Positions 15,268 through 37,722 of a stretch of 41,887 nt of DNA are shown here, piece by piece (within the stretch, counting starts at the first letter, position 1; each line of letters begins with the position of its first letter). This DNA comes from Bacteroidota bacterium (GTDB taxonomy: Bacteria > Bacteroidota > Ignavibacteria > Palsa-1295): assembly GCA_021825235.1 (NCBI GenBank), contig JAKAIL010000003.1, forward strand, positions 1-41,887. Direction: 5' to 3'. The notes beneath the pieces are model-generated. The model made no database searches. It saw nothing but the letters and a program-made list of their open reading frames with translations, and was not told the DNA's origin. The position numbers and the translations under genes were made by a program.

Positions 15268-17886
15268 ATGATCGCTCGGCTCGCTCTCGGATTCCTGCTT
15301 CTGCCAGCAATGGTGCTGGCGCAAGGCATGGACATGCGTAGCACGTCCAGCCAGGACTCGCTTCCCTTATTGCCGGAGGCAAAGCGATTGGTACATCCAC
15401 CCGGCGTGGCGCTCGTCCTTTCCGGCGGGGGACTCAAAGGCTTTGCCCATATTGGCGTGCTCGATGTGCTCGATTCTGCGCACGTTCCTATTGATTTAAT
15501 CACGGGTACCAGCATTGGAGCGGTGGTCGGAGGGCTGTATGCCGCCGGCTACACGCCGAAACAGCTCGAGCAATTTGCGGAGTCTATTAACTGGCCGGAT
15601 GTCCTTGGCCTAACCGGCGAATCCAATCGTTCCGAACGAACGCTTAGCGAAAAGGACATGAACCACTCGTTGCTCTCGCTACGCTTCACCGGATTTTTCG
15701 ATCCGGTCATTCCGCAAGCCATTTCGAATGGCGAACGGCTGACCATGCTGTTGAACGAAATGGTATTGGGGGCACCAGCGGGCGTTCCCCGCGATTTTCT
15801 TCGCGACCTTCGGGTTCCCTTCGTGGCTGTTACTACCGATATTGTCCATGGCACCCGCCGCCTGCTTACCCGTGGTGATTTGACGGAAGCACTCCGGGCG
15901 AGTGCAACACTGCCGCTCCGATTTAGTCCGCTGCCGATCAATACGGGTTCCACAGAGGGCGATTCTGCCATTCTGATGGATGGCGGGCTCATCTCGAACA
16001 TTCCAGCCGATGTCGCAAAGGAGTTCGGAGCGTCGCGCATCATTGTGTCCAACGCGACGGCGGGTCTCCACCCGCGTAACGAACTGAATACACCGTGGGA
16101 TGTAGCCGATCAGGTGATTACGCTGATGATGCTGCGGGAGAACGCCAAGGAACTCCGATATTCGAATTGTACCATTACCCCGGAACTTTCTGGAATCGAT
16201 GAGAACGATTATTCGAAAATTCCGGAGTTTATCGAAGCCGGTCGTGAAGCCGCGCGTGCCATGCTGCCGGAGATCGAGCGGGATATTGCAGCGGTAAAAG
16301 ATCCCACACCGCCTGCCGTACCGGAAGATACACTGTTGCCCGTGCTTCGCGCAATTCGAATGATCGGAACGCAGCACCGATATGTGGATTCCGCGGTCCT
16401 GTTCGATCGTTCCCTGCTCGACCAGCCATTACTGCGTTCCCAGAACATGAAGGCCATCGAGCAGCGAGTTCTCCAGGATTACCGGTCCCAGGGTTTCAGT
16501 TTGGTCCGAATCGATAGTGTGGTATTGCGGACAACTATTGGCCGCGCTGATTTATATGTAGATGAAGGCCACATTGGACGAATTGCCGTTCGCGGGAGCG
16601 AAAACACCGATACGGATTTTGCCTTGCGCGAAGTAGCATTTCACCCCGGTGATATTTTCCGCGCTACGGCGGGCAAACAATCGTTGCAAAATCTGACGGG
16701 TACCGGGCTATTCGATTTCGCGATTCTTCAAGTAGCCTACGATACCCTATGGCCTGGAACCCAGTATATTCGAACCGCAGATACATTTGCTTATCCGGAA
16801 GGTGCGCCATCGTTTGGGCCTTCGGTGATCCTCACCGTCCATTCGGAGAGTCCGAATGTGTTGCGCCTCGGCGTGCTGGCGGATAATGAATTCGGTGCTG
16901 AGTTTTCCGCGCAATTGGCGAACGAAAATATCAGTGGAAGCGGAATGGAATATGTGCTAACCGGAAGTATCGGTTCCCAGGCGCGGTCCGCTTCGTTGGC
17001 CTTTTCCGCGCCGCGTTTGCTGCACGGCTTCGGGGTGCTCGATGCACGCGCCTATGCTGGCTACCGTGATATTAACGCGTATGCCGTTCTTACGGATGTT
17101 ACCCAACAGAGCATCCGCAATACCGTGACGGATGTGGTGCGGGAATCGAGAGACTGGGGTATCCGCCTCCGCCTGGGTGGCCAGATCGAGCGCCTGGGTG
17201 CGCTAACCGTGGCACTCCGGGCCGAAAAGCAATCCTGGTTCAGTGTGCGCGACAGCGTGGGGGATAGCGGCTCGGACCAGGTGCGGGCACTGCGTGCTCA
17301 ATTGCTCCTCGATTCCCGCGATGATGCAAACTATCCTCATACCGGCAGTTACGTTCGCGGTTACGCAGAGACGGGCCTAACGCTGCTCGGAGTAGGAACG
17401 AATTACACGAAACTATTCGGAGAAGTAGCGCAGGCAATCCCGCTTTCTCCCCTGCATACCCTTATACCTCGGTTCCAGGTAGGCTTTGCCGATGCCGAAT
17501 TGCCCCGGCTCGAACAATTCGATTTGGGCGGCATGGAATCCTTTTATGGATTGAACGAATATGAATTGCGCGGAAAGCAGATGGTGGAAGGGAGCTTAAC
17601 CTACCAGATCGCAATCCCTCACGCTCTCTTTTTCCCGACGTTCGTCTCCGTGCGTTATGATGTGGGTGCTGTTTGGCCCGAGCCGGCTGCGATTAAATTC
17701 GAGTCCCTCTTGGACGGTATTGGCGCTCAGGTCGGAGTCAAAACGCCGCTCGGGCTCGCTCAGTTTGGAATCGGCGAGAATTTCCGCTTTGTTAAAGTAC
17801 CTGGTACGTCGCCGCTAAGGGAGCCATCGCATGTAATTGCGTGGAATGCTCCGCACTTCTACTTCTCGATCGGTTCCCGGCTGTAG
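15268..17886 (+). CDS. Patatin-like phospholipase with POTRA and outer-membrane beta-barrel
   Basis: An 872-residue protein with a signal peptide (MIARLALGFLLLPAMVLAQG). The patatin lipase domain is at about 45-345: oxyanion loop SGGGLKGFAHIG (52-63), nucleophile elbow GTSIG with Ser82, and catalytic Asp in DGG (238-240), so the Ser-Asp dyad is intact. Residues about 375-500 resemble a POTRA module (LYVDEGHIGRIAVRG). From about 530 to the end is a BamA/Omp85-like surface antigen barrel (NENISGSGMEYVLTGSIG onwards), ending in an aromatic-rich HFYFSIGSRL. This is the type Vd autotransporter (PlpD/FplA-like) layout, releasing or exposing the lipase at the surface. Predicted to hydrolyse phospholipids; the target is unknown. 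Confidence 0.92.
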   Translation: MIARLALGFLLLPAMVLAQGMDMRSTSSQDSLPLLPEAKRLVHPPGVALVLSGGGLKGFAHIGVLDVLDSAHVPIDLITGTSIGAVVGGLYAAGYTPKQLEQFAESINWPDVLGLTGESNRSERTLSEKDMNHSLLSLRFTGFFDPVIPQAISNGERLTMLLNEMVLGAPAGVPRDFLRDLRVPFVAVTTDIVHGTRRLLTRGDLTEALRASATLPLRFSPLPINTGSTEGDSAILMDGGLISNIPADVAKEFGASRIIVSNATAGLHPRNELNTPWDVADQVITLMMLRENAKELRYSNCTITPELSGIDENDYSKIPEFIEAGREAARAMLPEIERDIAAVKDPTPPAVPEDTLLPVLRAIRMIGTQHRYVDSAVLFDRSLLDQPLLRSQNMKAIEQRVLQDYRSQGFSLVRIDSVVLRTTIGRADLYVDEGHIGRIAVRGSENTDTDFALREVAFHPGDIFRATAGKQSLQNLTGTGLFDFAILQVAYDTLWPGTQYIRTADTFAYPEGAPSFGPSVILTVHSESPNVLRLGVLADNEFGAEFSAQLANENISGSGMEYVLTGSIGSQARSASLAFSAPRLLHGFGVLDARAYAGYRDINAYAVLTDVTQQSIRNTVTDVVRESRDWGIRLRLGGQIERLGALTVALRAEKQSWFSVRDSVGDSGSDQVRALRAQLLLDSRDDANYPHTGSYVRGYAETGLTLLGVGTNYTKLFGEVAQAIPLSPLHTLIPRFQVGFADAELPRLEQFDLGGMESFYGLNEYELRGKQMVEGSLTYQIAIPHALFFPTFVSVRYDVGAVWPEPAAIKFESLLDGIGAQVGVKTPLGLAQFGIGENFRFVKVPGTSPLREPSHVIAWNAPHFYFSIGSRL

Positions 17887-20735: not shown

Positions 20736-21713
20736 ATGGAACAGAACGAAGCAACAAGCAGAAGAAAATTTTTGAAGGTCGCAGCCGCTGCCGGGGCTGT
20801 CATCGCGACCGGTGCCGGACTTAAGAAAGCATTCTCAGCGGATAATCCATCCGGCAGCGATTCGCTCTCGGCAAGCTCTTCCCCAGCCGATACTTCGGCA
20901 TCCGGAGCCGATACTGCCGCGGCTGGTGAGAAGCTAAAAGTTCTTACACCCAGCGGTACGCTTCTCGAAATTGACAGCGCCCATGCCTATGCTACGCAGC
21001 ACAAGCCGGTATCCAATGAAGAAGCACGTATCGGCATACCAGGCCGAAAGTTCGTGATGGTCATTGATCTCTCGAAGTGCGATGGCTGCCGGAAGTGTAC
21101 GAAGGCGTGTCAGAAAATGCACTTTACCCCACCGGACCGCGAGTGGATCAAGGTCTTCGAAATGAAGGATTCGGAAGAAACCGGATCTTACTGGATGCCG
21201 AAGCCCTGCTTCCATTGCGATAATCCTCCCTGCACGAAAGTCTGCCCCGTTGGAGCAACGTTCAAGCGGGAAGATGGCATTGTTCTCATCGATAATACCC
21301 GTTGCATTGGCTGCCGCTTCTGTATGGCGGCCTGCCCATACTCCACGCGGTACTTTAATTGGGAGCACCCTGCAGAAATTCCCGCCATGGCGGATATTCC
21401 GTACACGCCGGAACAAGGGTATCCGCGCCGCGTGGGAACTGCCGAAAAGTGCGATTTCTGTCCGGACATGATTCGTGAAGGGCGCATGCCGGCCTGTATC
21501 GATTCCTGTGATATGGGCGCACTCTATTTCGGCGATGAGAACGAAGATGCGGTAACCAATTCCAATGGTGAGACGGTCCGCTTAAGCACGTTGCTCGATC
21601 AGAACGCGGGATACCGTTTTATGGAAGAATTGGGAACGAAGCCACGCGTCTATTATCTCCCGCCCAAGAATCGCCGTTATCCGGAACCCGTGCATGCAAC
21701 GGTCGTCGGATAA
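20736..21713 (+). CDS. Tat-exported four-cluster iron-sulfur protein (NrfC/DsrO/PsrB type)
   Basis: A 325-residue periplasmic electron carrier. The ATG at 20736 leads straight into a Tat signal (SRRKFLKVAAAAGAVIATGA, twin Arg 9-10); the frame is open to 20640 but that extension precedes the signal and is unlikely. Sixteen cysteines form four [4Fe-4S] sites: 115/118/121/125, 158/161/166/170, 190/193/196/200 and 239/242/254/258. This is the arrangement of NrfC, DsrO and PsrB and of the C-terminal part of ActB. Such subunits pass electrons between an NrfD-type quinone protein and a redox partner. No molybdopterin catalytic subunit is encoded next to it. It is the first gene of a five-gene operon. 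Confidence 0.92.
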   Translation: MEQNEATSRRKFLKVAAAAGAVIATGAGLKKAFSADNPSGSDSLSASSSPADTSASGADTAAAGEKLKVLTPSGTLLEIDSAHAYATQHKPVSNEEARIGIPGRKFVMVIDLSKCDGCRKCTKACQKMHFTPPDREWIKVFEMKDSEETGSYWMPKPCFHCDNPPCTKVCPVGATFKREDGIVLIDNTRCIGCRFCMAACPYSTRYFNWEHPAEIPAMADIPYTPEQGYPRRVGTAEKCDFCPDMIREGRMPACIDSCDMGALYFGDENEDAVTNSNGETVRLSTLLDQNAGYRFMEELGTKPRVYYLPPKNRRYPEPVHATVVG

Positions 21714-21766
21714 TACCATCGTACAGTAGAGTAGAACGGTACCATCAGCCGCCACAAACCTTTATT

Positions 21767-23272
21767 ATGGAACACATTACAAAACAGAAGAACGGAGTAG
21801 CAATGGCTCTTGCCGGAGGAGAAACGGGCGAGAGCCGTGGAGATTTTCCACTTCCGACTGGACCGGGCATCGAAAGCATACGCCAGCATTATTTGCGCCC
21901 CATTGCGCCGGGTAATTTTGGGACGCGAAGCAAGTATTGGATTGCTGGGCTCCTTGTTGTTATGGCATGGGGGCTTTATGCCTACATCCATCAACTACAG
22001 ATGGGTCTCGAAGCCACGGCGATGCGGAACTATGTGTCATGGGGGCTCTATATTGCTACCTTCGTCTTTATTATCGGCATCAGCCATTCGGGCACTCTGG
22101 TCTCAGCCATCCTCCGGGTGACGAATCAGGAATGGCGGCGACCGATTACGCGATCGGCGGAGCTTCTGACGGCCGTCGCACTTATGTTCGGTGGGCTAAT
22201 GCCCATCATCGACATGGGGCGTCCGGACCGCGTGCTCAACCTGATCTTTTACGGACGTATTCAATCCCCCTTACTGTGGGATGTTTTGTGCGTCACGACT
22301 TACTTTACGGGAAGTGTGATGTTCTTGTATTTGCCGATGATCCCGGACATTGCACTGGCGAAGAAGCGGTTTGCTACAACCGGCTCGAAGTTTCGGCTTT
22401 GGGTCTACGATAAGCTTTCGATGGGCTGGCAGGGAACTCCGGAGCAATGGCGCCGGCTCGAACGCGCCATGCGAGTCATGACCGTCATGATCATTCCGAT
22501 CGCGGTTTCCGTACACACCGTGATCTCCTATATCTTTGCAATGACCTTACGGGCAGGATGGGATAGCACCGTGTTCGGGCCCTATTTCGTCGTCGGTGCA
22601 CTGTATTCTGGTTCCGCCGGCGTGATCCTGGTAATGGCGGCATTCCGCAAAATCTATCACCTGGAAGAATTTATTACTCCGCGCCATTTTGACTTAATGG
22701 GGAAAATCGTGCTATCGCTCACGATGATTTATGCCTATTTCAATCTCAATGAATATTGGATCCCAGCGTATAAAATGGCCTCCGGGGAAGCGCCACTGCT
22801 GCACTCGCTCTTCTCCGGTAACCTTTCTACTCTCTTCTGGACCTTACAGTTCGGGACGGTGCTGATTCCCATCATTATCCTGGCCACTCCACGTGGTCGC
22901 AGGCCTACCCTTTCGGTTATTGCTTGCATCATCATCGTGGTCGGTGCCTGGGTGAAGCGATACGCCATTGTCATTCCCGTGCTTGAGCATCCATTCCTTC
23001 CGATGCAGCATGCCCCGCAATCGTGGACGCATTACTTCCCCAATTGGGTGGAATTCTCCGTTGTTGGTGGTATGCTGGCCGGAATATTCTTAGTCCTTAC
23101 CCTCTTTTCGAAGTTCTTCCCCATTAGTTCCATCTGGGAAGTGGAAGAAGGCGTCCACCGATCGGAACATTCGGCGCACGATCACTCATCCGGTCAATCG
23201 CACCTTGCAGCAAATGGGAAGGACACTAATCACAAACACATTCCTGCAGTCGAGGAGGCCTTCGCGCAATGA
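21767..23272 (+). CDS. NrfD/PsrC/ActC-like integral membrane quinone-interacting subunit
   Basis: A 501-residue protein with about ten membrane helices, longer than classical eight-helix NrfD and closer in size to ActC or QrcD. The segment ISHSGTLVSAILRVTNQEWR (about 104-123), followed by ITRSAELLTAVALMFGGLMP and IDMGRPDRV, is the recognisable ActC-like core. Family members exchange electrons with menaquinone or ubiquinone at the periplasmic side. The C-terminus is cytosolic or periplasmic and His-rich (HSAHDHSSGQSH). The gene starts 53 bases after the iron-sulfur gene and its stop overlaps the next start by four bases. The pair probably forms a quinone-cytochrome module. Confidence 0.9.
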   Translation: MEHITKQKNGVAMALAGGETGESRGDFPLPTGPGIESIRQHYLRPIAPGNFGTRSKYWIAGLLVVMAWGLYAYIHQLQMGLEATAMRNYVSWGLYIATFVFIIGISHSGTLVSAILRVTNQEWRRPITRSAELLTAVALMFGGLMPIIDMGRPDRVLNLIFYGRIQSPLLWDVLCVTTYFTGSVMFLYLPMIPDIALAKKRFATTGSKFRLWVYDKLSMGWQGTPEQWRRLERAMRVMTVMIIPIAVSVHTVISYIFAMTLRAGWDSTVFGPYFVVGALYSGSAGVILVMAAFRKIYHLEEFITPRHFDLMGKIVLSLTMIYAYFNLNEYWIPAYKMASGEAPLLHSLFSGNLSTLFWTLQFGTVLIPIIILATPRGRRPTLSVIACIIIVVGAWVKRYAIVIPVLEHPFLPMQHAPQSWTHYFPNWVEFSVVGGMLAGIFLVLTLFSKFFPISSIWEVEEGVHRSEHSAHDHSSGQSHLAANGKDTNHKHIPAVEEAFAQ

Positions 23273-23925
23273 AAATTCTAAGATGCTCTCTACTATTCGT
23301 GCTCGCACTATTCCTGTTCAGCGTGCATGTACGCCGCTCTCTGGCCATGGACTCTATGGGCGGTATGGCGATGGATTCCGCAGGCGCCAGCACCGCCGCT
23401 GTGAGCGCGAGTGGCGCCGGCGATTCCTCCGCTTCCAATGCCAAACTTACGCTCGCTGTAACGGATGGCGATACGGTTTGGAACGTCCAGGCGAACTTTA
23501 TCGGCCCGGATTCAACCGGCAAGATCGGACCGCTCGCCAATCAGACCGTTAGCTTTTACGTCAAACGGCTCTTTGGCATCATGCCGATGCGAGACGATGA
23601 TAACACGGGAACGACGGATGATTCCGGAAACGCCGTGATTCAAATGCCGAAAAACATTCCCGGTGGTACCACCGGGATGCTCACGATCATTGCTCGTGTG
23701 GAACAAGACGATCAAACCGGTTTGGTCGCCGCCAGCGATTCTGGACATTGGGGGAAGGTCGTTCCTCTCGAGGCTAATCCATTCCCACGCGCGCTGTGGG
23801 AGCCCAATGCGCCCATTTCCATGATCATCGTTTTTGTCATTCTCTTCGGTGGCGTATGGTCCACCTACGGATTTGTAGTAACTCAACTTGTAACCATTAA
23901 AAAGGAACACCAGAATGAAGCATAA
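23269..23925 (+). CDS. Membrane-anchored periplasmic protein, unknown role in the complex
   Basis: A 218-residue protein with an N-terminal signal (LLFVLALFLFSVHVRRSLAM) and a C-terminal membrane anchor at about 184-205 (SMIIVFVILFGGVWSTYGFV), followed by a short basic tail. The mature N-terminus is rich in Met, Ser and Ala (MDSMGGMAMDS). The middle (about 60-165) looks like an immunoglobulin-type beta-sandwich (KLTLAVTDGDTVWNVQANFI). It overlaps the NrfD gene by four bases and the cytochrome c gene by eleven, so it is translated with them and is probably a structural subunit. No cofactor motif is visible. Confidence 0.7.
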   Translation: MKILRCSLLFVLALFLFSVHVRRSLAMDSMGGMAMDSAGASTAAVSASGAGDSSASNAKLTLAVTDGDTVWNVQANFIGPDSTGKIGPLANQTVSFYVKRLFGIMPMRDDDNTGTTDDSGNAVIQMPKNIPGGTTGMLTIIARVEQDDQTGLVAASDSGHWGKVVPLEANPFPRALWEPNAPISMIIVFVILFGGVWSTYGFVVTQLVTIKKEHQNEA

Positions 23926-24343
23926 ATCAGTATCCTCCCTTAGTGCTATCTTTCTTTCGATAGCCATTGCGGGGTTCATCGTTGCGTTTATTGTGACGAA
24001 TTCACCTGCAAGCAATGCCGGGAAATGGATGGCGCCAGCCTCCGCGAATAACATGAAAAATCCGGTCGCGAAGACGCCGGTCTCCATTCAGGACGGCAGG
24101 AAAATATTCAATAAAGAATGCAGTTCCTGCCACGGGCCAAAAGGTTTGGGCAATGGCCCAAAGGCGGGCGACCTGAATATTCAACCCAGCAACCTTGCCT
24201 CCCATTTGGTACAGAGCCAAAGCGATGGAGCGATCTTCTGGAAGATCACCACGGGCAATAAGCCGATGCCAACGTTTCGGACGGCCTATTCCGATCAAGA
24301 CCGTTGGAACCTTGTGAACTTTGTACGCACGCTGGGAAAGTAA
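23915..24343 (+). CDS. Membrane-anchored monohaem cytochrome c
   Basis: A 142-residue cytochrome with an N-terminal hydrophobic segment (about 8-30) that may be an uncleaved anchor. The haem motif CSSCH is at 69-73, followed by GPKGLGNGP and a Met ligand in NKPMPTF (Met118), as in class I cytochromes c. It resembles ActE-like and other small c-type partners of quinone complexes and could carry electrons from the NrfD complex to the porin-cytochrome encoded next. The ribosome-binding site AAAGGA lies just before the start. Confidence 0.9.
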   Translation: MKHKSVSSLSAIFLSIAIAGFIVAFIVTNSPASNAGKWMAPASANNMKNPVAKTPVSIQDGRKIFNKECSSCHGPKGLGNGPKAGDLNIQPSNLASHLVQSQSDGAIFWKITTGNKPMPTFRTAYSDQDRWNLVNFVRTLGK

Positions 24344-24428: not shown

Positions 24429-25697
24429 ATGAAACGATTCATCACGATTCAATTACTCCTGCTGGCAAGCGCGGTTCTGCTGTTGGTCTCCGTAACCAAA
24501 AGCAACGCCATGCCGATATTCGCTCGCAAGTATGGCTTCAAATGTTCGTATTGCCATACCACGATTCCGCGTTTGAACGAGACGGGATTTCGGTTCCGGG
24601 CCGCGGGCTTCCGGCTGCCAAGCGATATCGGTGGGCCACAACCCGATGAAAATTACCAACTCGGTAACTATCTTGCAATAGCGCTTACGGGTGCACTGTC
24701 TAATAACACAACAAATCCTCCGGGCGCAGCTTCTACTTCTACCTTTTCCATGGGACTCGATCAGATTATGGTGGCCGCGGCTGGTGCGATGACCCCGGAG
24801 ATGTCCGGCGATGTACATTTGATGTACGATCCAATGAGCGGCACATTCGGGCTCGATAAAGCCTATGCGCAATACACCACCGGTGCCGAAAATGGATTCT
24901 TCACTGCCAAGCTGGGCGTGCTCGATCCGTTCCAGGGCTATCAGGCCTCGGATGAGGCGATGGGGCTTTCGGATCCACTCATAAAAGCCGACGCTGCGGT
25001 TGGACCCAATGGTTCCACGCTCTTCACGTCCGGTGGGCTTCCACAATTCGGATTGGAACTTGGATATACCTGGCCGACGACGGCTGTACGAGCTTCGGTC
25101 CTGGGTGGCGTGTTTAATTCCAGTGGCCAACCAATGCCCGTCGAGGGAACCGGTGGTAAACCGGTGGGACCCTCACAGAATAGCGTTGATTTTCAACTCT
25201 TCGTTACGCAGTTCCTGAATCAGGAAGGGGCCGGACTTTCGGGGTACTTCTACATGGGCAGTATCGACCTTCCGACCGGAGTTAGTTCCAGTTCGCCCGA
25301 TAGCAATGTCTTTCAGGATAAGTTCATTCGCTATGCGATCTACGGAACGCTTCCCATCTCCTCGTTTCAGGTGCTGGCCGGTTGGCAACAGGGAACCGAT
25401 AATAGCTGGGACTCCACGACCTTTGCGAAGGGTAGCGACTTTTCGAGTTCCGGATTCTTTGGTGAACTCGATTACCAGCTCGCTCCGCTTCTGGGCGTGG
25501 GCGTCCGCTATGATCAATTCGATCCCTGGACGAAGCAATCCGATAATCTAATAAACGGTGTGGCTGGCTTTGTCAATTATGCCGTTGGGGACGGGCTCCA
25601 ATTCGTTGGAGAATATCAGTCACTTACTACTCAGCAAGGCCCCGGACAAAAAGAGACCGACGGTAGCTTTGGAATCAACGTGATCTGGATTCACTAA
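24429..25697 (+). CDS. Porin with fused N-terminal monohaem motif (Cyc2-like), paralogue 1
   Basis: A 422-residue predicted outer-membrane protein. A signal peptide (about 1-27, ending SNA) is followed by MPIFARKYGFKCSYCHTTIP with haem motif CSYCH at 39-43, then LNETGFRFRAAGFRLP. The remaining 350 residues alternate polar and hydrophobic residues with many Gly, Tyr and Phe, as in a beta-barrel, and end in an aromatic-terminated strand (FGINVIWIH). The short haem segment plus barrel, and the LNxxGxxFxxxG pattern after the haem, match Cyc2-type fused cytochrome-porins of iron oxidisers in outline. Iron oxidation is not proven by this; other haem-porins share the layout. A strong terminator follows. 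Confidence 0.82.
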   Translation: MKRFITIQLLLLASAVLLLVSVTKSNAMPIFARKYGFKCSYCHTTIPRLNETGFRFRAAGFRLPSDIGGPQPDENYQLGNYLAIALTGALSNNTTNPPGAASTSTFSMGLDQIMVAAAGAMTPEMSGDVHLMYDPMSGTFGLDKAYAQYTTGAENGFFTAKLGVLDPFQGYQASDEAMGLSDPLIKADAAVGPNGSTLFTSGGLPQFGLELGYTWPTTAVRASVLGGVFNSSGQPMPVEGTGGKPVGPSQNSVDFQLFVTQFLNQEGAGLSGYFYMGSIDLPTGVSSSSPDSNVFQDKFIRYAIYGTLPISSFQVLAGWQQGTDNSWDSTTFAKGSDFSSSGFFGELDYQLAPLLGVGVRYDQFDPWTKQSDNLINGVAGFVNYAVGDGLQFVGEYQSLTTQQGPGQKETDGSFGINVIWIH

Positions 25698-25754
25698 GAA
25701 GTCGTAGAACGCTATGAAGCTGGCTGCAAAAGGCGGCCTGCTAAGGTTATGTAT

Positions 25755-25787
25755 GGGAGATGCCTGAGAGGCATCTCCCATTTTTTG
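25755..25787 (+). terminator. Rho-independent terminator of the NrfD-type operon
   Basis: The arms GGGAGATGCCT (25755-25765) and AGGCATCTCCC (25769-25779) are perfect inverses with a three-base loop, followed by ATTTTTTG. It lies 58 bases after the porin stop. Confidence 0.93.
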
Positions 25788-27092: not shown

Positions 27093-28535
27093 TTACTTTT
27101 TCAGGCTCTGTAGGAACGCTACGAGCTCATGGAATTCGCTATCGGAAACATCGACGGGGTCCATACCGGCATCGCTGGCCTTTTTGGTCGGATGAAGTAG
27201 GCGATCGACCAGCGTATCGGGTCCGAGTTTGTCCGCGGCGCCAAGAAGCGCTGGGGCTTTATCGGTTCCCTCACCATTCTCGCCGTGGCATTGGTCGCAC
27301 GAGTTATCCAGAAAAACGCCTTTACCGGCTTTTGCCGCCGGACTCAACGCGGCGGCAGCATTGGCAGTGGAACCACCAACCACTTCCGGCACAAACGGGG
27401 AAGTCATAAACGCGTTCGCGAGAGAATCCTGCTTGGTAATCTGTTTTGCAACTGAGGGATCGTTCGTATCCTGATAGTTGCTTTGCCATCCAAGAAAGAG
27501 AAGCGCGCAAAATACGATCGCAAAGGAAAACGATGCGACGGGCCGCTTCCACGGTCGTCGTTCCAAGCGGCGATCCAGGAACGGTAACACCACAAGTATG
27601 AGTGCAATGATACCGGGGATCACCACAATGCCAATTACGGAATATGCACCGCTCCAATATTTCAGCCATTGGAACATCGGAAGGTAATACCACTCGGGCC
27701 GAGGAAGGAAGGACGTATCGGCGGGATTTGCCTTCGGCCCAAGACCTACCGGATAAAGGTAGGCGAGCAATCCAAGCGTGCCAATCAGGACCGTCGCAAA
27801 TGCGATATCCATCAGGACCTGCTTGGGGTAAAATTGCTCCGCCTTTTGCTGTGGCATAATCGGATGTTCGGAGACCGGTCCAGCGCTTCCGGCTTTGCGG
27901 AAGAGATAGACGTGAAGCCCCACGAAGAGGAAAATGCACGATGGAATCAGAAATACGTGAGCGACGAAGAAACGGGACAATGTAAGTGTTCCCATCTCCG
28001 TGCCACCCCGCAGGAGCTCCTTAATCCAGTTCCCAACGAGCGGTACTTCGCCGGCAATGTTTGTCCCAACCGCCGTAGCGAAATAGGCTTTCTGGTCCCA
28101 GGGAAGTAAATAACCGGTGAATGCCATGAGGATCACCAGGCCAAACAGTCCCAAACCTGAAAGCCATAGAATTTCCCGACGCCCTTTGTAGGAGCCAAAG
28201 AAATACGTTTGCCCCATGTGGACGAGGAGCGTTACAACCATGGCACTCGAACCATACGAGTGCAGGCTCCGAAGGAACGATCCAGCAGTAACGACCTTCG
28301 TAATGTATTCGATCGTCGTATGGGCGTGATCGGCGCTCGCGACATAATACATCGCAAGAAAGACTCCGGTCACAATCTGCGAAAGCAGAATGTAAAGGAG
28401 TCCCGAGCCAAAGACGTACGACCACCGCGCGCCACCGGGGATTGGTTCATTCAGCGCTTCATCGGCCAGATGAAAGATTCCCGTTCGTTCATCGAGCCAG
28501 CGCATGAAGCGTAAGCTGCGTAAATGCTTTCTCAT
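27093..28535 (-). CDS. Cytochrome b with fused C-terminal cytochrome c domain
   Basis: A 480-residue catalytic subunit of a quinol-cytochrome c oxidoreductase. Haem-b ligands are His92 and His106 (helix B) and His193 and His208 (helix D); the 14-residue gap in helix D is the b6f/green-type spacing. The quinol-oxidation site motif is PEWY (280-283). About residues 32-350 contain the membrane helices; from about 395 a cytochrome c domain follows with haem motif CDQCH (413-417), replacing a separate c1 subunit. The start overlaps the Rieske stop by four bases. Electrons would go from quinol to this haem and on to the small cytochrome c and porin-cytochrome of the same operon, or the reverse. Confidence 0.94.
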   Translation of the reverse strand: MRKHLRSLRFMRWLDERTGIFHLADEALNEPIPGGARWSYVFGSGLLYILLSQIVTGVFLAMYYVASADHAHTTIEYITKVVTAGSFLRSLHSYGSSAMVVTLLVHMGQTYFFGSYKGRREILWLSGLGLFGLVILMAFTGYLLPWDQKAYFATAVGTNIAGEVPLVGNWIKELLRGGTEMGTLTLSRFFVAHVFLIPSCIFLFVGLHVYLFRKAGSAGPVSEHPIMPQQKAEQFYPKQVLMDIAFATVLIGTLGLLAYLYPVGLGPKANPADTSFLPRPEWYYLPMFQWLKYWSGAYSVIGIVVIPGIIALILVVLPFLDRRLERRPWKRPVASFSFAIVFCALLFLGWQSNYQDTNDPSVAKQITKQDSLANAFMTSPFVPEVVGGSTANAAAALSPAAKAGKGVFLDNSCDQCHGENGEGTDKAPALLGAADKLGPDTLVDRLLHPTKKASDAGMDPVDVSDSEFHELVAFLQSLKK

Positions 28536-29206
28536 GCCATCACCTCCTTCGTTTTGACGAGGTTACGGAATGATTGATAGCGCACCTTCAGATGACCCTC
28601 TTCGATTTTGGATTCGAGTGAATCCATATCTCGCGGCGGGGGCCCTGAAATCAGTTTGCCGGTTGCCGCAAACTTACCACCATGGCACGGGCATTTGAAT
28701 TGGTGATCGTCATCGACATACTTAACCGAGCAGCCCAAGTGTGGACAGACCGCCGTTAGCACCGCCGGTTGGCCGTCTGCGCCTTTGATTACGTACACCA
28801 CCTTTTCGGAATTGACTTTTCTCCAACCATCGAGTTGGGTAATCGAGATCGTCTTCTTTTGTGGTGTGCTCAGGTCACCCAAATCATCCACGGAACCCAG
28901 GTCGGTCCATTCCGTTTCCTGGGAAACCCGGAGCAGCGGATCGATCGCGAACCGAAACAGCGGTACGGAAAGCGCGCCTGCTACTCCCACGGTTCCGATT
29001 CCGAGGAACCATCCGAGGAACCGGCGCCGCGCCACAGACTCCGCCGCACCGAGCGTGCCACCGGCGGCCGTATGTTCGTGCCCGGAAGTCATCTCTAAAT
29101 GCGAAGCATCATGCGCCGAGCGCCCATTCGTTGGAATGGGCGCCCGTTGCTGGATTTCGTTGGATGACCGATTATCCGTTACTTCTTCTTTTGACTTTCG
29201 AGCCAT
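28532..29206 (-). CDS. Rieske iron-sulfur protein of the cytochrome bc complex
   Basis: A 224-residue protein. A long polar N-terminus (about 57 residues) precedes a Tat-type signal-anchor (ARRRFLGWFLGIGTVGVAGA, 59-78), then the periplasmic Rieske domain with CPHLGC (154-159) and CPCHGG (172-177), which bind the [2Fe-2S] cluster through two Cys and two His. The SGPPPRD segment that follows is also conserved. The GTG/ATG-rich start region was left as the longest frame beginning at the ATG at 29206, which overlaps the cytochrome c stop by 28 bases; a shorter start is possible. It transfers electrons from quinol to cytochrome c. Confidence 0.93.
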   Translation of the reverse strand: MARKSKEEVTDNRSSNEIQQRAPIPTNGRSAHDASHLEMTSGHEHTAAGGTLGAAESVARRRFLGWFLGIGTVGVAGALSVPLFRFAIDPLLRVSQETEWTDLGSVDDLGDLSTPQKKTISITQLDGWRKVNSEKVVYVIKGADGQPAVLTAVCPHLGCSVKYVDDDHQFKCPCHGGKFAATGKLISGPPPRDMDSLESKIEEGHLKVRYQSFRNLVKTKEVMA

Positions 29207-29520
29207 GCCGTCAGTGTGTTAAGTTCTTCATCGGAACCAGTGAACTTTTTCATGTGCTTTTTGCCATGCTGTTCCACTTCCTTGTGCAGCCACTGCTTCA
29301 TCCAGTCCTGCGTATGGCGGTCGCCAACGTCGGAAAGATCGGGTGGTGGATACTTCGCACCTTCCGGCGGCTCGCTGGTATGATGAATACCCTGCGAGGA
29401 GATCGAATGGCACTTGTTGCACCCGTTATCGAGGAAAAGGCTCTTTCCCGAATTGCTTTTGAGTGTGGCGCTCGTGAGTAAACCGGTCGCGAGCAAACCT
29501 AAGAATAGTGTTTTCTTCAT
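29179..29520 (-). CDS. Small periplasmic monohaem cytochrome c
   Basis: A 113-residue protein with signal peptide MKKTLFLGLLATGLLTSATL, haem motif CNKCH (34-38) and a probable Met ligand in KHMKKFTGSDEE. The start at 29520 has AAGGAAGGA just upstream; the frame is open for 12 more codons. The region GKSLFLDNGCNKCH resembles the cytochrome domain fused to cytochrome b in the same operon, suggesting a shared origin. It probably shuttles electrons between the bc complex and the outer-membrane porin-cytochrome. Confidence 0.9.
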   Translation of the reverse strand: MKKTLFLGLLATGLLTSATLKSNSGKSLFLDNGCNKCHSISSQGIHHTSEPPEGAKYPPPDLSDVGDRHTQDWMKQWLHKEVEQHGKKHMKKFTGSDEELNTLTAWLESQKKK

Positions 29521-29543: not shown

Positions 29544-30899
29544 TTATTGGAACCAACTGACACGCAGCGCAAAGGCATTATTCTGTGCTGTTCCCAGCAA
29601 GCTCTCTCCATTCGAAGTCGGAGTCTTTGTGCTCGTGGCAGCGTAGGAGGCGGTGAGCGAGAACCCATCGCCGAAATTATAGTCCACGTAGCCCGTAATC
29701 ACGTTAATGTTATCGATGCTGGCGTTCGAATTGTCTGGCGTTACTGCATCGTAGCGCGCGCCAACGCCGATGAGGTCCGTAACCGGATAATCGGCTTCGC
29801 CGAACCAGCCAGAGCTGCTGATATCCGGGCCATACGAGAAGGTTTTCAGAGCCCAGCTATTATCGGAACCGTGTTCATAGCCGCCTTCCAGAAGGACCTT
29901 CGCGACGGGAATCGGGTAACTCGCATAGATCGCATAGCGGCTGAATTTATTTTGCCAGAATTCCGAATCGACATTGGTCGAAGCAGAGCCCGTGTTAATG
30001 TCGGCGTTTCCAAGGTAGTACGCCGCGGAAATACCGCCACCATCCTCGGTCAGGATATAGTTGGCCCAAAACATATAGTCAAAGGAATTAGCGGAGGGGG
30101 CTTGCCCTGCACCGACGCCGGTCGGTTTACCGGCCACGGCTGCCGAAGGCTTTCCGCCGGCATAGGTATAACCACTCAGGACTTCCGCATGTACCGTCGC
30201 TTCACCGAAGACATATCCGAGATCGATTCCCATATTGGAACCAGTCAGTCCGGTGTACGTGGGCTTTACCCCGCCATTCTGATAATTATACAAGCTGATT
30301 GCATACCCCGAATTCATCTTCGGGCTGCCACTCCACCCACGATCGGAGCCGCCGTAGCCCATGAAGGTATTAAGCTTTCCAATGCGTGCCGAGAACCAGG
30401 AATCTTCGGTACCCGTGTAATAACCAACAGAAGCCGTCGAAACTTCGAGGCTGCCATTGGTGCTGAACCCGAGTTCCGATTCTGATGAGATATTCGGCGT
30501 TAGAGCGCCGAATATGGCATAGATAGAACCACCGGTGAAGGCCATGTTCATGTTGCTAACCGAGGGCGATCCGGATGCCGCCGCGGTTGCCGACGACTGA
30601 TTCACGGCAAAATTCAGCCTGCCCGCGAAGTAGTCCCCGATGTTATACGATGCTTGTTTCTGCCCGATTTCGTCCGGCATCCGGTAACCGGCTGCACGGA
30701 ATTTCCAGCCGAATTCGTTCAGTTTCGGAATTACGTCATGGCAGCTGCCGCAGCCAAGGCCGTACTTCCGCGCGAAATTAGGCATCGCGCTGGCCGTGTG
30801 TAGTATGGGAATTACGGGCGATGCCGAAATCGCGAAGAGTGCAAGCAGGAGCGCCATCACCCGTAGTGTCTGTTGGAGTTGTAAGCTATGAGAACGCAT
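29544..30899 (-). CDS. Porin with fused N-terminal monohaem motif (Cyc2-like), paralogue 2
   Basis: A 451-residue protein. The ATG at 30899 starts a long signal region that ends near TASA at 36-38; the frame is open to 31001 but that stretch is unlike a protein. MPNFARKYGLGCGSCHDVIP holds the haem motif CGSCH (50-54), followed by LNEFGWKFRAAGYRMP. The rest is a beta-barrel-type sequence with Gly/Tyr/Trp-rich strands, ending FALRVSWFQ. The N-terminal 40 residues of the mature protein are clearly homologous to those of paralogue 1, though the barrels differ. Encoded first in the bc-complex operon, it is likely the outer-membrane end of that electron chain. Confidence 0.83.
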   Translation of the reverse strand: MRSHSLQLQQTLRVMALLLALFAISASPVIPILHTASAMPNFARKYGLGCGSCHDVIPKLNEFGWKFRAAGYRMPDEIGQKQASYNIGDYFAGRLNFAVNQSSATAAASGSPSVSNMNMAFTGGSIYAIFGALTPNISSESELGFSTNGSLEVSTASVGYYTGTEDSWFSARIGKLNTFMGYGGSDRGWSGSPKMNSGYAISLYNYQNGGVKPTYTGLTGSNMGIDLGYVFGEATVHAEVLSGYTYAGGKPSAAVAGKPTGVGAGQAPSANSFDYMFWANYILTEDGGGISAAYYLGNADINTGSASTNVDSEFWQNKFSRYAIYASYPIPVAKVLLEGGYEHGSDNSWALKTFSYGPDISSSGWFGEADYPVTDLIGVGARYDAVTPDNSNASIDNINVITGYVDYNFGDGFSLTASYAATSTKTPTSNGESLLGTAQNNAFALRVSWFQ

Positions 30900-31512: not shown

Positions 31513-34500
31513 CTACTGAAACAGTTTCCGGAACTTCTCCCGCCATTCCGAGAAGATTTCGTAAATCGTCGGGATGACCACCAGCGTAAGGATCGTGGAC
31601 GTAATGACGCCGCCGATCACCGCACGGCCCAGCGGAGCCCGGAAATCCGCGCCTTCTCCCGCGCCGATAGCTACCGGGATCATGCCCGCGATCAGCGCAA
31701 GCGTCGTCATCATAATTGGACGCAACCGCACCCGGCCCGCCTCGATGAGCGCCTCCCGCAATGGCATACCTCCTTCGTGTTGCCATTTCGCAAAGTCGAT
31801 GAGAAGGATCGCGTTCTTCGCTACGATACCCATCAGAAGCATGATACCGATCAGCGCCATTACGTTCAGCGTATCGCCCGTGATGAGCAGCGCAAGCACC
31901 ACGCCGATCAGCGAGAGCGGAAGCGAAATCAGGATCGCAACCGGATCTAAGAACGAGCCGAATTGCACCACTAAGATCAGGTACATCAGCAATATCGCAA
32001 GACCAAGCGCCTCGAAGATCGCTACATAGAACTCCCCTTGTTGCTGCACCTGGCCGCCATTCGTTACCCGAATGCCCGGCGGTAGTTTTAGCTTCGCTAC
32101 CGCGCTATTGATATCCTGGGACACCTGCCCGAGCGAACGGCCCTGCGTATTGCACTCCACGTTGATGACCCGGTCCTGGTTCAAATGGTCTATCTCCGCT
32201 GGGCCAAGACCTTGCGTTATGTTCGCAATCTGCCCGAGTGGAACAATTCCTGCTCCGCCCGAACCGCCTGCCTGAGTGGGAGCGACCACCAAGGGAACTT
32301 GTGCCAGATTCGCGGCGGACTCCCGCGCTTCCGGAGCCAGCCGCACCGTCACATCACGCGTCTTGCCGGTCGGATCGACCCAGTCGCCCGTCTTCAGGCC
32401 GGCGAAGGCCGGAAGCAGCGATTGGGCGACCTGGCCCACCGTCAGCCCCATCGACCCAATCAGACCGCGACGCAAAGTGACTTCGATTTCCGGCTTTTGC
32501 CCTTTGGTCGAAAGCCCAATATCCGCCGTGCCGGGGACCTTCCGAATGGCGTCCTCGATCATCAGCGAAGCGTGCTCCATACTCGCTTCGTCCGAGCCCT
32601 GGACCTGTAGCTGCACTTCCTTTTGCGCGCCGCCGAACCCGCTGGAAAACACGTACGCGTCCACGCCGCCAATGGTCGCAAGCTGTTTGCGGAAGACTTC
32701 CGCGAGTTCCCATTGCGCCAGCGAGCGGTCCGCTTTCGGAATCAGCTTTACATAGATAGAGGCTTGCGTCACATCGCCGGAACCGGATGACGTGCCCAGC
32801 ATCGTCGTTTCGCTGCCAATCGTCGTGTACGTGTAGGCGACTTCCCGGTGGGCCCGCAGCAGGTTGGTAAGCTCCTGCGTCTTCGCCAGGGTATAGCCAA
32901 GGCTGGAACCCGGCGGTGCCTCCACCGAGATCGTGAGTTCCGAGCGGTCGCTGTTCGGAACGAAGCCGGAGCCGCCGTATTTGGCTTGCACGAAGAGCGC
33001 ACCGAAAAATGCAACCACGGCGATCACCACCATCCACCACCGATGGTCCAGCGCCCACGCGATAATGCCGCGATACCCATCCGCGGTCCGATTGAACCAG
33101 GTATTGAACGCATCCAGCCACGGATACATAATCCCGAGCACGCCTAAGCCAAGCAGCAGGTAACTTAGGAGGGGGGTGGCCAACCCGTACACAAGCCCGC
33201 CAAGCCCAAACAAGAAGGATGCAATGCCAAGTATGGTCGGGAGCGTTTTCCGGCGCGTGTGGACTACGGTATGGGGGTCCGGCCAGTAGGCCGAAAGCAT
33301 CGGGTCCAGCGAGAAGCTCACGAAGAGCGATACGAGCACCGCGCACGCTACGGTAAGCGCGAACGGCTTGAACCATTGGCCGGAAAGACCGCCCATGAAC
33401 GCGACTGGAACGAAAACGGCAACGATAGAAAACGTCGTTGCCGTTACCGCCAAACCGATTTCATTCGTTCCATTATGGGCGGCCGTCAGGTGGTCCTCGC
33501 CGAGTTCCACATGGCGCACGATGTTCTCGCGGACGACGATCGCATCGTCTATCAGAATCCCAATCGCGAGCGAAAGGCCCATGAGCGACATCGTGTTCAG
33601 CGTAAAGCCGGCCGCCAGCACCGCCATAAACGCTGCGAGAACAGAAACAGGCAAGGCGAGGCCGGTGATAACCGTCGAACGCCACGAATTCAGGAACAAG
33701 AAGACGACCAGCACCGTAAGCAACGCGCCTTCGAAGAGGGTCTCTTTTACGTTCTCCACCGAGCGCGTGACCTGAACGCCCTGGTCTTTCACAATATCGA
33801 GTGTGGTTCCCGGAGGTAGCGTCTTTTTAATGCCGGCAATAGCCGCGCGAACAGCATCTGCCACCGTAGCCGTGCTGGCGCCTTTCGCTTTGGTAATATC
33901 CAAGCCCACACACGCTTCGCCATTGAATAGCGCCATCGTTCGTGCCTCTTGCGCGGTATCCGCAACAGAGGCAACATCCTGCAAGCGAATGACTTGCCCG
34001 TTGCGCGTGGCAATCGGCACATAGTTGAAGTCGTTCGGATTTTCTATCCTTCCCTGAAGCCGAATGGACTGCTCTGTGAGTGGCGTTTGCAAGGAACCCA
34101 CCGGTGCCGCAAGGTTCTGCGCCTCGAGCGCCTGCACGACCTGCGCTACGCTCACTCCGTTCGCTTCCAAATCCCTGGGGCGGACATTTACCGCGATCTC
34201 GCGATTGACGGCCCCTTCAATGGCGACCTGCGCGACTCCATCGATGGCCGAAAGAGCTTTCTTGATTTCCGGATCGGCAAGCGATGTTAAATCTGCCGGC
34301 GTCATACCGGGCGAACGCAGCACGAGCGAAACAATCGGCAATTGGTCCGGATCGAATTTCTCGAGGATCGGCGGCTTCATCTCCGTCGGCAGGTCATTCT
34401 GGATGGTCGAGATGGCATCCCGTACATCCGCCATCGCTTCGTCGGGATTCTTCGAAAAGACGAATTGGATTGTGATTAGCCCAAAGCCATCGAGCGATTG

Positions 34501-34746
34501 CGAGGTCATTTTATCGAGGCCGCTTATGGATCCAAATGCCTCTTCCATACGGTCCACGACTTCGCGTTCCACCTGCTCCGGCGAGGCGCCCGGATAGGGG
34601 ACGGCAACGACCACAATGGGGTTTGTAATGTCCGGGAACTCGTCTATTTGCAGATTTGCAAGGGCAAACAGTCCAAAGATGACCAGCGCAATCATCGTTA
34701 CCACCGTAACGACGGGTCGCTTGATCGCAAAATCGGAAATAAACAA
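31513..34746 (-). CDS. RND-family efflux pump inner-membrane transporter (HAE1/AcrB type)
   Basis: A 1077-residue proton-driven transporter. N-terminus MFISDFAIKRPVVTVVTMIA is the standard first helix. LSLAIGILIDDAIVVRENIV carries the paired Asp residues of the proton relay in helix 4, and ALIGIMLLMGIVAKNAILLI has the Lys of helix 10. Two periplasmic loops contain the porter and docking subdomains, as usual. This HAE1 group exports drugs, solvents and other hydrophobic compounds through a tripartite assembly with the next two genes. The central linker between halves is somewhat extended (HTVVHTRRKTLPTILGIASF region). The start is preceded by a tandem repeat (34759-34787). Confidence 0.95.
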   Translation of the reverse strand: MFISDFAIKRPVVTVVTMIALVIFGLFALANLQIDEFPDITNPIVVVAVPYPGASPEQVEREVVDRMEEAFGSISGLDKMTSQSLDGFGLITIQFVFSKNPDEAMADVRDAISTIQNDLPTEMKPPILEKFDPDQLPIVSLVLRSPGMTPADLTSLADPEIKKALSAIDGVAQVAIEGAVNREIAVNVRPRDLEANGVSVAQVVQALEAQNLAAPVGSLQTPLTEQSIRLQGRIENPNDFNYVPIATRNGQVIRLQDVASVADTAQEARTMALFNGEACVGLDITKAKGASTATVADAVRAAIAGIKKTLPPGTTLDIVKDQGVQVTRSVENVKETLFEGALLTVLVVFLFLNSWRSTVITGLALPVSVLAAFMAVLAAGFTLNTMSLMGLSLAIGILIDDAIVVRENIVRHVELGEDHLTAAHNGTNEIGLAVTATTFSIVAVFVPVAFMGGLSGQWFKPFALTVACAVLVSLFVSFSLDPMLSAYWPDPHTVVHTRRKTLPTILGIASFLFGLGGLVYGLATPLLSYLLLGLGVLGIMYPWLDAFNTWFNRTADGYRGIIAWALDHRWWMVVIAVVAFFGALFVQAKYGGSGFVPNSDRSELTISVEAPPGSSLGYTLAKTQELTNLLRAHREVAYTYTTIGSETTMLGTSSGSGDVTQASIYVKLIPKADRSLAQWELAEVFRKQLATIGGVDAYVFSSGFGGAQKEVQLQVQGSDEASMEHASLMIEDAIRKVPGTADIGLSTKGQKPEIEVTLRRGLIGSMGLTVGQVAQSLLPAFAGLKTGDWVDPTGKTRDVTVRLAPEARESAANLAQVPLVVAPTQAGGSGGAGIVPLGQIANITQGLGPAEIDHLNQDRVINVECNTQGRSLGQVSQDINSAVAKLKLPPGIRVTNGGQVQQQGEFYVAIFEALGLAILLMYLILVVQFGSFLDPVAILISLPLSLIGVVLALLITGDTLNVMALIGIMLLMGIVAKNAILLIDFAKWQHEGGMPLREALIEAGRVRLRPIMMTTLALIAGMIPVAIGAGEGADFRAPLGRAVIGGVITSTILTLVVIPTIYEIFSEWREKFRKLFQ

Positions 34747-34758
34747 GTGCGGTCCCTA

Positions 34759-34787
34759 AGTGCTAAAGTACTGAGTGCTGAAGTGGC
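34759..34787. repeat. Tandem AGTGCT/AGTACT repeat
   Basis: AGTGCT at 34759, AGTACT at 34767 and AGTGCT at 34774 are followed by AAGTGG. It is related to the array at 12023-12054 and fills the gap between the membrane-fusion protein stop and the RND start. Confidence 0.65.
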
Positions 34788-34791
34788 CCTA

Positions 34792-36024
34792 CTATTTTGC
34801 CGGTGGTGCGTTGGGCGGAGTCTGGGGCGTATCGGTGATAGTCTTCACTTTAGATCCCAGCGCAATATCCATGGCTGCGCCGCGAAGAACGGTATCGCCG
34901 GTGGAAACTCCGGAAGTAACTTCGATAAGATTATCTTTGGTATCCAGCGTCCCCAGAGTAATAAGCACGCGTTCCACCACCCCGCCTTTTACTCGCATGA
35001 CGGCCGGTGTAATGGTTCGGTGGTCAATCGCGTCCGTTGGTAAGGCGAGGGCGTTTTTCACGCTACTGGCTATGCGGCCTTCGGCATACAGCCCACCGAC
35101 CAGCGTTTTGCCGGTGTTCGGAATGTCCGCATAAATTCTCACCTGCCGCGTCACCGGATCGGCGGTCGGATTGATCCGCGCAACCACGCCCTGGAATTTG
35201 CGACCGGGATAGCCCGTAATATCGAATTGAACAGGTAATCCTATATGGACCACTTCCAAGGCATCCGCCGGAACGGTTCCCTGCAACTCGAGCGTCGAAG
35301 GATCGACGATGGTATATAACTGGGTGCCTTGCTGGACCACATCTCCGACGGAAACGCTTTTTTCGCTCACAATTCCCGAGAACGGAGCTCGGACCGTGGC
35401 ATATCCCAGTTGTTTCTCTGCACTCGCCAAAGCAGCGATTGCCTGTGCCACGCCCGCCTGTGCGGCGACTGTTGCTTTTCGAGCTTCATCCACACTCTGC
35501 TGCGAAATCGCTCCGGCCTTCAGCAGTGTTTCCTGGCGTTCCTGTTCGCGCTGAGCTACGTCCAAAGCGCTCTTAGCGTTCGTGACTCCGTTTTTGGCGC
35601 TGGTCACTGCATCGGTGAGTGCGCTATTGTCGATGGTGGCGATTACTTGTCCTTCTCGAACCGGGGAACCCTGATCGACCATCGTTCGCAGGACCGACCC
35701 CGAAATCTGCGCGCGGACGACGGCCTGATCGCGTGGAACTAACGTGCCGCTAATCACGGGCCCGCTTTCGATTTGCTGCACGTGCGCCACGACGTAACTT
35801 TCCGGTCCAAGCTCCATCGCCGGCGGCGGGCCTGCTGGAGGCGCCTTATGACAGGACGCAACGAAAAAGGTGGCAAGGGCGAGGAACGCGAACCTATATA
35901 GGGACGGACGGACTTTGGGCCTATGCGCGCCTTCCCCACTCTTCTCCTCCCGCGAGCGGGGGGACAGAGGAGGGTAAGACACCTGCGTATCGTAATTCGT
36001 CATTCGAAAATGGTTATTGATCAT
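34792..36024 (-). CDS. RND efflux periplasmic membrane-fusion lipoprotein
   Basis: A 410-residue adaptor protein. A lipobox FVASC follows the hydrophobic segment LYRFAFLALATFFV (about 43-56). Then come lipoyl half-motif SGTLVPRDQAVVRAQISGSV, a long alpha-helical hairpin rich in Ala, Gln and Glu (about 120-200), the second lipoyl half YATVRAPFSGIVSEKSVSVG and beta-barrel and membrane-proximal domains. It links the RND pump to the TolC-like channel. The start overlaps the TolC stop (ATGA, 36021-36024). The first 35 residues contain YPPLSPRSREEKSGEG, encoded by a hairpin repeat, so the true start may originally have been closer to the lipobox. Confidence 0.92.
   Translation of the reverse strand: MINNHFRMTNYDTQVSYPPLSPRSREEKSGEGAHRPKVRPSLYRFAFLALATFFVASCHKAPPAGPPPAMELGPESYVVAHVQQIESGPVISGTLVPRDQAVVRAQISGSVLRTMVDQGSPVREGQVIATIDNSALTDAVTSAKNGVTNAKSALDVAQREQERQETLLKAGAISQQSVDEARKATVAAQAGVAQAIAALASAEKQLGYATVRAPFSGIVSEKSVSVGDVVQQGTQLYTIVDPSTLELQGTVPADALEVVHIGLPVQFDITGYPGRKFQGVVARINPTADPVTRQVRIYADIPNTGKTLVGGLYAEGRIASSVKNALALPTDAIDHRTITPAVMRVKGGVVERVLITLGTLDTKDNLIEVTSGVSTGDTVLRGAAMDIALGSKVKTITDTPQTPPNAPPAK
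35931..35973. repeat. C/G-rich hairpin repeat inside the membrane-fusion gene N-terminus
   Basis: It contains CTCCTCCCGCGAGCGGGGGG, which resembles the cores of 37517-37555 and 9322-9362. It lies between the start codon and the signal segment of the membrane-fusion protein and keeps the frame. Confidence 0.6.
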
Positions 36025-37511: not shown

Positions 37512-37516
37512 TTTTT

Positions 37517-37555
37517 CCCCCTTTCTCCCCCCGCGAGCGGGGAGAGAAAGGGGGG
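37517..37555. repeat. Perfect-type C/G-rich hairpin repeat upstream of the TolC gene
   Basis: CCCCCTTTCTCCCC (37517-37530) pairs with GGGGAGAGAAAGGGGG with one extra base around CCGCGAGC. On the transcript it provides the Shine-Dalgarno-like AGGGGG next to the TolC start, so folding of the hairpin could mask the ribosome-binding site (inference). Confidence 0.75.
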
Positions 37556-37668
37556 AAAAGCGAGAGCGTTGTGTGAAAGGCATTATCATTCCGCGCGGGT
37601 AAGACGCCGAAATACGTCGGATATTGTGAGAAGATTCGGGAAACCAGTAGATAGTGCGGGAAATGATG

Positions 37669-37722
37669 AATGTAGAATGGTGAATGATGAATTGCGGCAT
37701 TCATCATTCACCATTCTACATT
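37669..37722. repeat. 23-base perfect inverted repeat
   Basis: The arms 37669-37691 and 37700-37722 are exact inverses with an 8-base loop. They lie between the dihaem cytochrome gene and the TolC gene and could form a very stable RNA hairpin. No T-run follows, so simple intrinsic termination is not assured. Confidence 0.88.

Follow-up and report, generated by a model that had tools for sequence, protein, structure and literature searches.

Among the described systems, alternative complex III (ACIII, ActABCDEF; PDB 6F0K, 6BTM, 6LOD, 8K9E) shares several parts with an operon found in a 41,887-nucleotide stretch (contig JAKAIL010000003.1, referred to as the window) of a Bacteroidota genome of the Kapabacteria group. 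Both contain an ActC-related protein of the NrfD family, an ActB-like iron-sulfur (Fe-S) protein, and a monohaem cytochrome c. However, the module encoded here has no ActA, ActB1, ActD, or ActF, its Fe-S protein is free and unfused, an additional immunoglobulin (Ig)-like subunit is present, and its NrfD protein lies outside the ActC clade with four ActC signature residues altered. The Fe-S/NrfD/multihaem modules of MBNT15 and Melioribacter (PMC9386147) and the Qrc, Nhc, and Mcc complexes are likewise quinone modules devoid of a molybdopterin subunit that pass electrons to a c-type cytochrome, but those are multihaem (Qrc also has QrcB), whereas the module has a monohaem cytochrome and the Ig-like subunit; its NrfD protein scores 90 bits on the NCBIfam QrcD profile, for which the cut-off is 570. 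The NrfD fold is also shared with DsrMKJOP, and the Fe-S protein falls just under the NCBIfam cut-off for DsrO (194.1 versus 200 bits), but the NrfD protein is well under that for DsrP, and DsrM, DsrK, and DsrJ are absent.

A further likeness is to the neutrophilic iron oxidisers, in which a single organism combines an ActC-type quinone complex with a Cyc2-type porin and a cytochrome c of the periplasm (PMC4643136, PMC8406198). Here, in contrast, porin and quinone complex are encoded in one operon, and the complex lacks ActA and ActB1. A survey of NrfD complexes holds no entry of such composition (PMC8076601), and no description of the gene set was found in the open-access literature searched; the building blocks are all known, while their combination is not described there. 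As set out below, the operon probably encodes a quinone:cytochrome c oxidoreductase with neither a molybdopterin nor a multihaem subunit, coupled here to an outer-membrane cytochrome-porin.

A five-gene operon and the recurrence of its four-gene core

A sequence-only reading of this DNA had described four proteins, namely an Fe-S protein exported by the twin-arginine translocation (Tat) pathway, an NrfD protein, an Ig-like subunit, and a monohaem cytochrome c, and all four are as described (Table 1). That reading limited the operon to these genes; a fifth gene precedes the only strong plus-strand terminator nearby, and thus the system comprises five. Operon neighbours overlap or nearly touch, the Ig-like gene overlapping both the NrfD gene and the cytochrome gene. 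The surrounding part of the window revealed no gene for a molybdopterin enzyme, NrfA, a multihaem protein, or DsrMKJ.

Table 1. Features of the NrfD operon and of a second, parallel operon in the window.
Feature	Position	Strand	Characteristics
Tat-exported Fe-S protein	20736..21713	+	325 aa; SRRKFLK Tat motif; 16 Cys in four cluster motifs
NrfD-family integral membrane protein, ActC-related	21767..23272	+	501 aa; PF03916; PDB relatives; tree; residues
Ig-like subunit	23269..23925	+	AlphaFold2 model: N-terminal signal helix, beta sandwich, C-terminal transmembrane helix
Monohaem cytochrome c	23915..24343	+	142 aa; one CXXCH; PF13442 and PF00034
Cyc2-type fused cytochrome-porin	24429..25697	+	422 aa, secreted; motif, AlphaFold2 model, fold matches; kept in congeners
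Intrinsic terminator	25753..25781	+	13-pair stem and T run
Cytochrome b with fused cytochrome c domain, parallel operon	27093..28535	-	PF00033, PF00032, PF00034
Rieske protein, parallel operon	28532..29206	-	PF00355
Monohaem cytochrome c, parallel operon	29179..29520	-	PF00034
Second Cyc2-type cytochrome-porin, parallel operon	29544..30899	-	40% identity to first porin; AMPNFARKY, CGSCH, PKL

The nearest solved relatives of the Fe-S protein in the PDB are PsrB, ArrB, and the Fe-S part of ActB. It has the cysteine of the first motif that is absent (CxxxxxCxxxC) in 53 of 90 relatives. Membership of its neighbour in the NrfD family is clear, with 125.8 bits on PF03916 against a curated cut-off of 25.8. 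The model of the Ig-like protein has a mean predicted local distance difference test (pLDDT) score of 80, and a PDB fold search with it gave weak sandwich matches alone (best E 1.5e-3) with no pointer to function. The cytochrome c shows weak similarity to ActE.

The fifth protein carries AMPIFARKY-GFK-CSYCH-TTI-PRL near its N terminus. Cyc2 is diagnosed by AXPXFAR[Q/K][T/Y] before CXXCH, PXL after it, and a length of >365 aa (PMC8406198), and the 422-aa protein matches on every count (AMPIFARKY, CSYCH, PRL). Its AlphaFold2 model, of moderate confidence (mean pLDDT 62, barrel blocks mostly 60-79), comprises 16 barrel strands, and a fold search placed OprO and OprP within the top five matches, the same phosphate porins that are given as structural neighbours of Cyc2 (PMC8406198). 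By motif and predicted strand number the protein thus appears to be of Cyc2 type, for which Fe(II) oxidase activity is a candidate role. The order FeS-NrfD-Ig-cytochrome-porin is kept in one congener (G001) and, up to its contig end, in a second (G002). Just downstream of the operon, G001 encodes a 10-haem cytochrome, without a homologue in the genome studied here, and a large protein that is MtrB-like by position and size with no Pfam match.

In a single scan across about 85,000 species genomes, the NrfD protein had at least 580 relatives, and the best 80 loci (42-77% identity) were used. They come from isolates as well as metagenome-assembled genomes (MAGs), most of them in Bacteroidota, Chloroflexota, Acidobacteriota, and Gemmatimonadota, and nearly all of the loci contain the FeS-NrfD-Ig-cytochrome c set, which is thereby found again in dozens of other genomes. 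Because these loci were picked by NrfD alone, their gene context is independent evidence, and since the gene order is repeated across several phyla, the gene set is not a product of chance. An Fe-S gene lies upstream of NrfD in 78 of the 79 compared loci with room for it, the exception being the genome's own ActC. Downstream, among 77 loci with room, the Ig gene is separate in 58 and fused to NrfD in 6 by profile; the other 13 include some sub-threshold fusions (L061 by Pfam) and ACIII or molybdopterin-type loci. In Chloroflexota members and in Marinifilum the cytochrome is fused to the Ig domain, so that the two kinds of fusion tie the parts of the module together. Homologues occur in the named isolates Niastella vici, Solitalea agri, Pinibacter aurantiacus, and Marinifilum flexuosum. 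In a sample of the phylum, 12 of 395 genomes (3%) had a match at E 1e-80 or better, of which at least one (G038) is a relative bearing a molybdopterin subunit.

Several further features accompany the module in other genomes. At L107:6150-6398 and 28 other loci, the Fe-S gene is directly preceded by one for a small Tat-signal protein (about 82 aa) that is similar to the N-terminal region of the Fe-S protein yet has no cluster motif. Neighbours of the four-gene core in Bacteroidota (L048, L050, L052, L054, and others) include Crp/Fnr-like regulators bearing N-terminal cysteines, along with DUF5777 barrel, EB_dh-domain, and YceI proteins and small lipoproteins of GCH type. The module is repeated in tandem, two or three times per locus, at L046, L051, L054, L095, L104, and L119, some with a MarR-like regulator nearby. 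The module was also found in two MAGs labelled archaeal (L067 and L069), perhaps through misbinning or gene transfer. On a plasmid of Halomontanus rarus (L155:2115-5353), genes for a 4Fe-4S protein and an NrfD protein accompany that for a haloarchaeal halocyanin, with no molybdopterin gene in the 9 kb shown; this set is perhaps an archaeal parallel.

Relation of the NrfD protein to ActC

Every PDB match of the NrfD protein is ActC or ActF, with ActC the best, in line with the kinship to ACIII put forward in the sequence-only reading. A first tree also took in E. coli NrfD and HybB, NrfD proteins of haloarchaea, and ActF; because its branches were very long and its root was unstable, it was dropped, and the main tree was limited to ActC, the new clade, and DsrP as outgroup. 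In this DsrP-rooted tree ActC forms a single clade (support 100/100) with the window protein outside it, and the latter falls inside no known enzyme clade tested. Four relatives (L040, L041, L042, and L105) join ActC at 97/88. Three of them have a separate ActB1-like molybdopterin protein, L042 and L105 additionally a pentahaem ActA, whereas the L040 locus is truncated at the end of its contig. The remaining 44 rows, including the window protein, form a third group that is not firmly supported (69/76). Searches with phmmer revealed no ActA or ActB1 at these 44 loci save for a weak match at L075, a molybdopterin enzyme almost 4 kb off, and a marginal ActA match at L101, which is a monohaem cytochrome. 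The core-clade loci likewise lack ActD and ActF.

The best tree puts the window clade outside ActC and the relatives bearing a molybdopterin subunit. Approximately unbiased (AU) tests rejected neither the constraint keeping the 48 non-ActC rows together (p 0.20) nor that joining ActC with the 44-row group (p 0.07), and so the data fit both descent from ACIII by loss and an origin as a simpler sister lineage. The earlier description of the module as a stripped-down ACIII relative accordingly holds for the relation, while the direction of change is undecided by these tests. Only tentatively, the clade might be a widespread, undescribed quinone:cytochrome c oxidoreductase that split off before ACIII gained ActA and ActB1 and retains a simple core that later became the basis of ACIII, driving in this organism a five-gene wire between outer membrane and quinone pool. 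The grouping of molybdopterin-subunit-bearing relatives with ActC (97/88) is compatible with such early branching and does not establish it.

At the level of residues, Ser164 and Asp169 of the ActC quinone site and the gating Arg395 are invariant here. A second set, His139, Asp253, Tyr323, and Glu394, each conserved in >95% of ActC, served as a test for ACIII; the position of Glu394 is Lys in 42 of the 44 clade rows.

Proposed function and alternative explanations

A wire of five gene products between the outer membrane and the quinone pool is proposed because the terminator comes only after the porin, gene order and fusions are kept, the NrfD protein is kin to ActC and has its quinone-site residues, the fifth protein has the Cyc2 motif, 16 modelled strands, and an OprO/OprP-like fold, the porin is retained in G001 and G002, and neither PF00384 nor NrfA was found in the genome. 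From these we infer the redox activity, the order of partners, the proton coupling, and the extracellular partner of the complex. Briefly, the NrfD protein would bind quinone at the periplasmic side and possibly move protons, and the Fe-S clusters would link the quinone site to the monohaem cytochrome c, for which the Ig-like subunit may serve as a membrane-anchored scaffold and docking site. In this genus the cytochrome would then exchange electrons with the Cyc2-type porin of the same operon. Electrons could flow inward from Fe(II) or another donor, for which there is a precedent in the proposed model of Cyc2, periplasmic cytochrome, and ACIII in neutrophilic iron oxidisers (PMC4643136). Alternatively, they could run outward to an acceptor, as precedented by the Fe-S/NrfD/multihaem modules of iron reducers (PMC9386147). 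For the minimal quinone-cytochrome c oxidoreductase suggested earlier, the activity is likewise a prediction.

Several points weigh against this assignment. The function is predicted from sequences and models, and the genome is just 92% complete. Most relatives lack the porin and carry other barrel proteins (DUF5777) instead, so that the link to it is one at genus level together with one Gemmatimonadota locus (L082) and one molybdopterin-type locus (L042); such porins are also present in congeners without the NrfD module. Finally, the four ActC test residues are replaced in the window protein by Asp149, Ile256, Asn326, and Lys397, and quinone chemistry may therefore differ. Since Asp at the first of these sites is usual in DsrP, QrcD, and HybB (PMC8076601), quinone binding stays plausible.

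The strongest alternative, in our view unlikely, is that the module forms the quinone side of a larger enzyme with its catalytic subunit encoded elsewhere, the cytochrome c merely feeding a terminal reductase or dehydrogenase. A catalytic subunit is the usual partner of FeS-NrfD pairs (PMC8076601), and additional genes at the Bacteroidota loci encode EB_dh-domain, YceI, and small cytochrome-like proteins of unassigned role. Against this, the four-gene core is constant while the flanking genes vary by lineage, and the operon encodes no molybdopterin catalytic subunit of the kind that marks complex iron-sulfur molybdoenzymes. Within an assembly of 92% completeness, PF00384 had no match, although the same search was positive in 11 of 14 control genomes, and the sole NrfA match was sub-threshold and inside ActA. 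The claim that a dedicated catalytic subunit is lacking is thus upheld for the operon and, for PF00384 and NrfA, genome-wide. A search of the genome for a triple-CXXCH pattern returned nothing and says little, as its spacing would overlook ActA as well.

That the usual partners are missing is likewise true of the operon; the genome itself has homologues of ActA to ActF on contig C23, where they make up a full ACIII operon of their own alongside SCO and CoxB genes, and encodes haem-copper oxidase subunit I on contig C179. The presence of both systems raises the prospect of an ACIII variant in which only ActC is replaced and ActA or ActB is borrowed from C23. This is quite improbable, as an Fe-S protein and a cytochrome c come with the module itself, its NrfD protein falls outside the ActC clade with the Glu394 position changed, and the congeners G003, G005, and G006 have an ACIII-type ActC without such a module. 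A DsrOP-type module of sulfur metabolism is nearly refuted despite the near-threshold DsrO score, given 119.2 bits for the NrfD protein against a DsrP cut-off of 350, its distance from DsrP in the tree, and the lack of DsrMKJ nearby. CCG-domain proteins exist in the genome, and the two considered as DsrK candidates are not in a DsrK setting. Judged by sequence, the C165 protein, with a membrane region at its start, resembles a NarI/CCG fusion of quinone oxidoreductase type and the C190 protein a soluble Fe-S oxidoreductase, and neither has an adjacent NrfD gene.

Parallel operon, neighbouring genes, and implications

On the opposite strand, running from 30899 down to 27093, a parallel operon has its own porin (Table 1), and the window therefore holds two different quinone complexes, each beside its own cytochrome-porin. 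Porin, Rieske, and cytochrome b genes remain linked in four other genomes (G004, G005, G006, and G009). A third cytochrome-porin (IPLFAHKY...CFTCH) is encoded on contig C230 of the same genome (L044:2555-6337) next to dihaem and monohaem cytochromes c and a plastocyanin-like protein, a set that also follows Rieske/cytochrome b genes in G004 and G005. Elsewhere, the window encodes a tripartite resistance-nodulation-division efflux operon of ACR_tran pump, HlyD-type fusion protein, and OEP channel (31513-37700, minus strand), a member of the rifampin ADP-ribosyltransferase family (Arr-ms; 5703-6446, minus strand), and a patatin-like phospholipase fused with POTRA and Omp85 barrel domains (15268-17886, plus strand).

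The ActB1 domain of ACIII carries no cofactor, and its role is a puzzle. A sister complex that pairs an ActC-type subunit with a cytochrome c in the absence of ActB1 and ActA would, if true, reveal the minimum set of parts for proton coupling and for electron transfer between quinone and cytochrome c, and as such a sister the module would bear on the origin of ACIII. For extracellular electron transfer in this group of Bacteroidota, the module is also a candidate quinone gate, and the homologues in named isolates make it open to testing.

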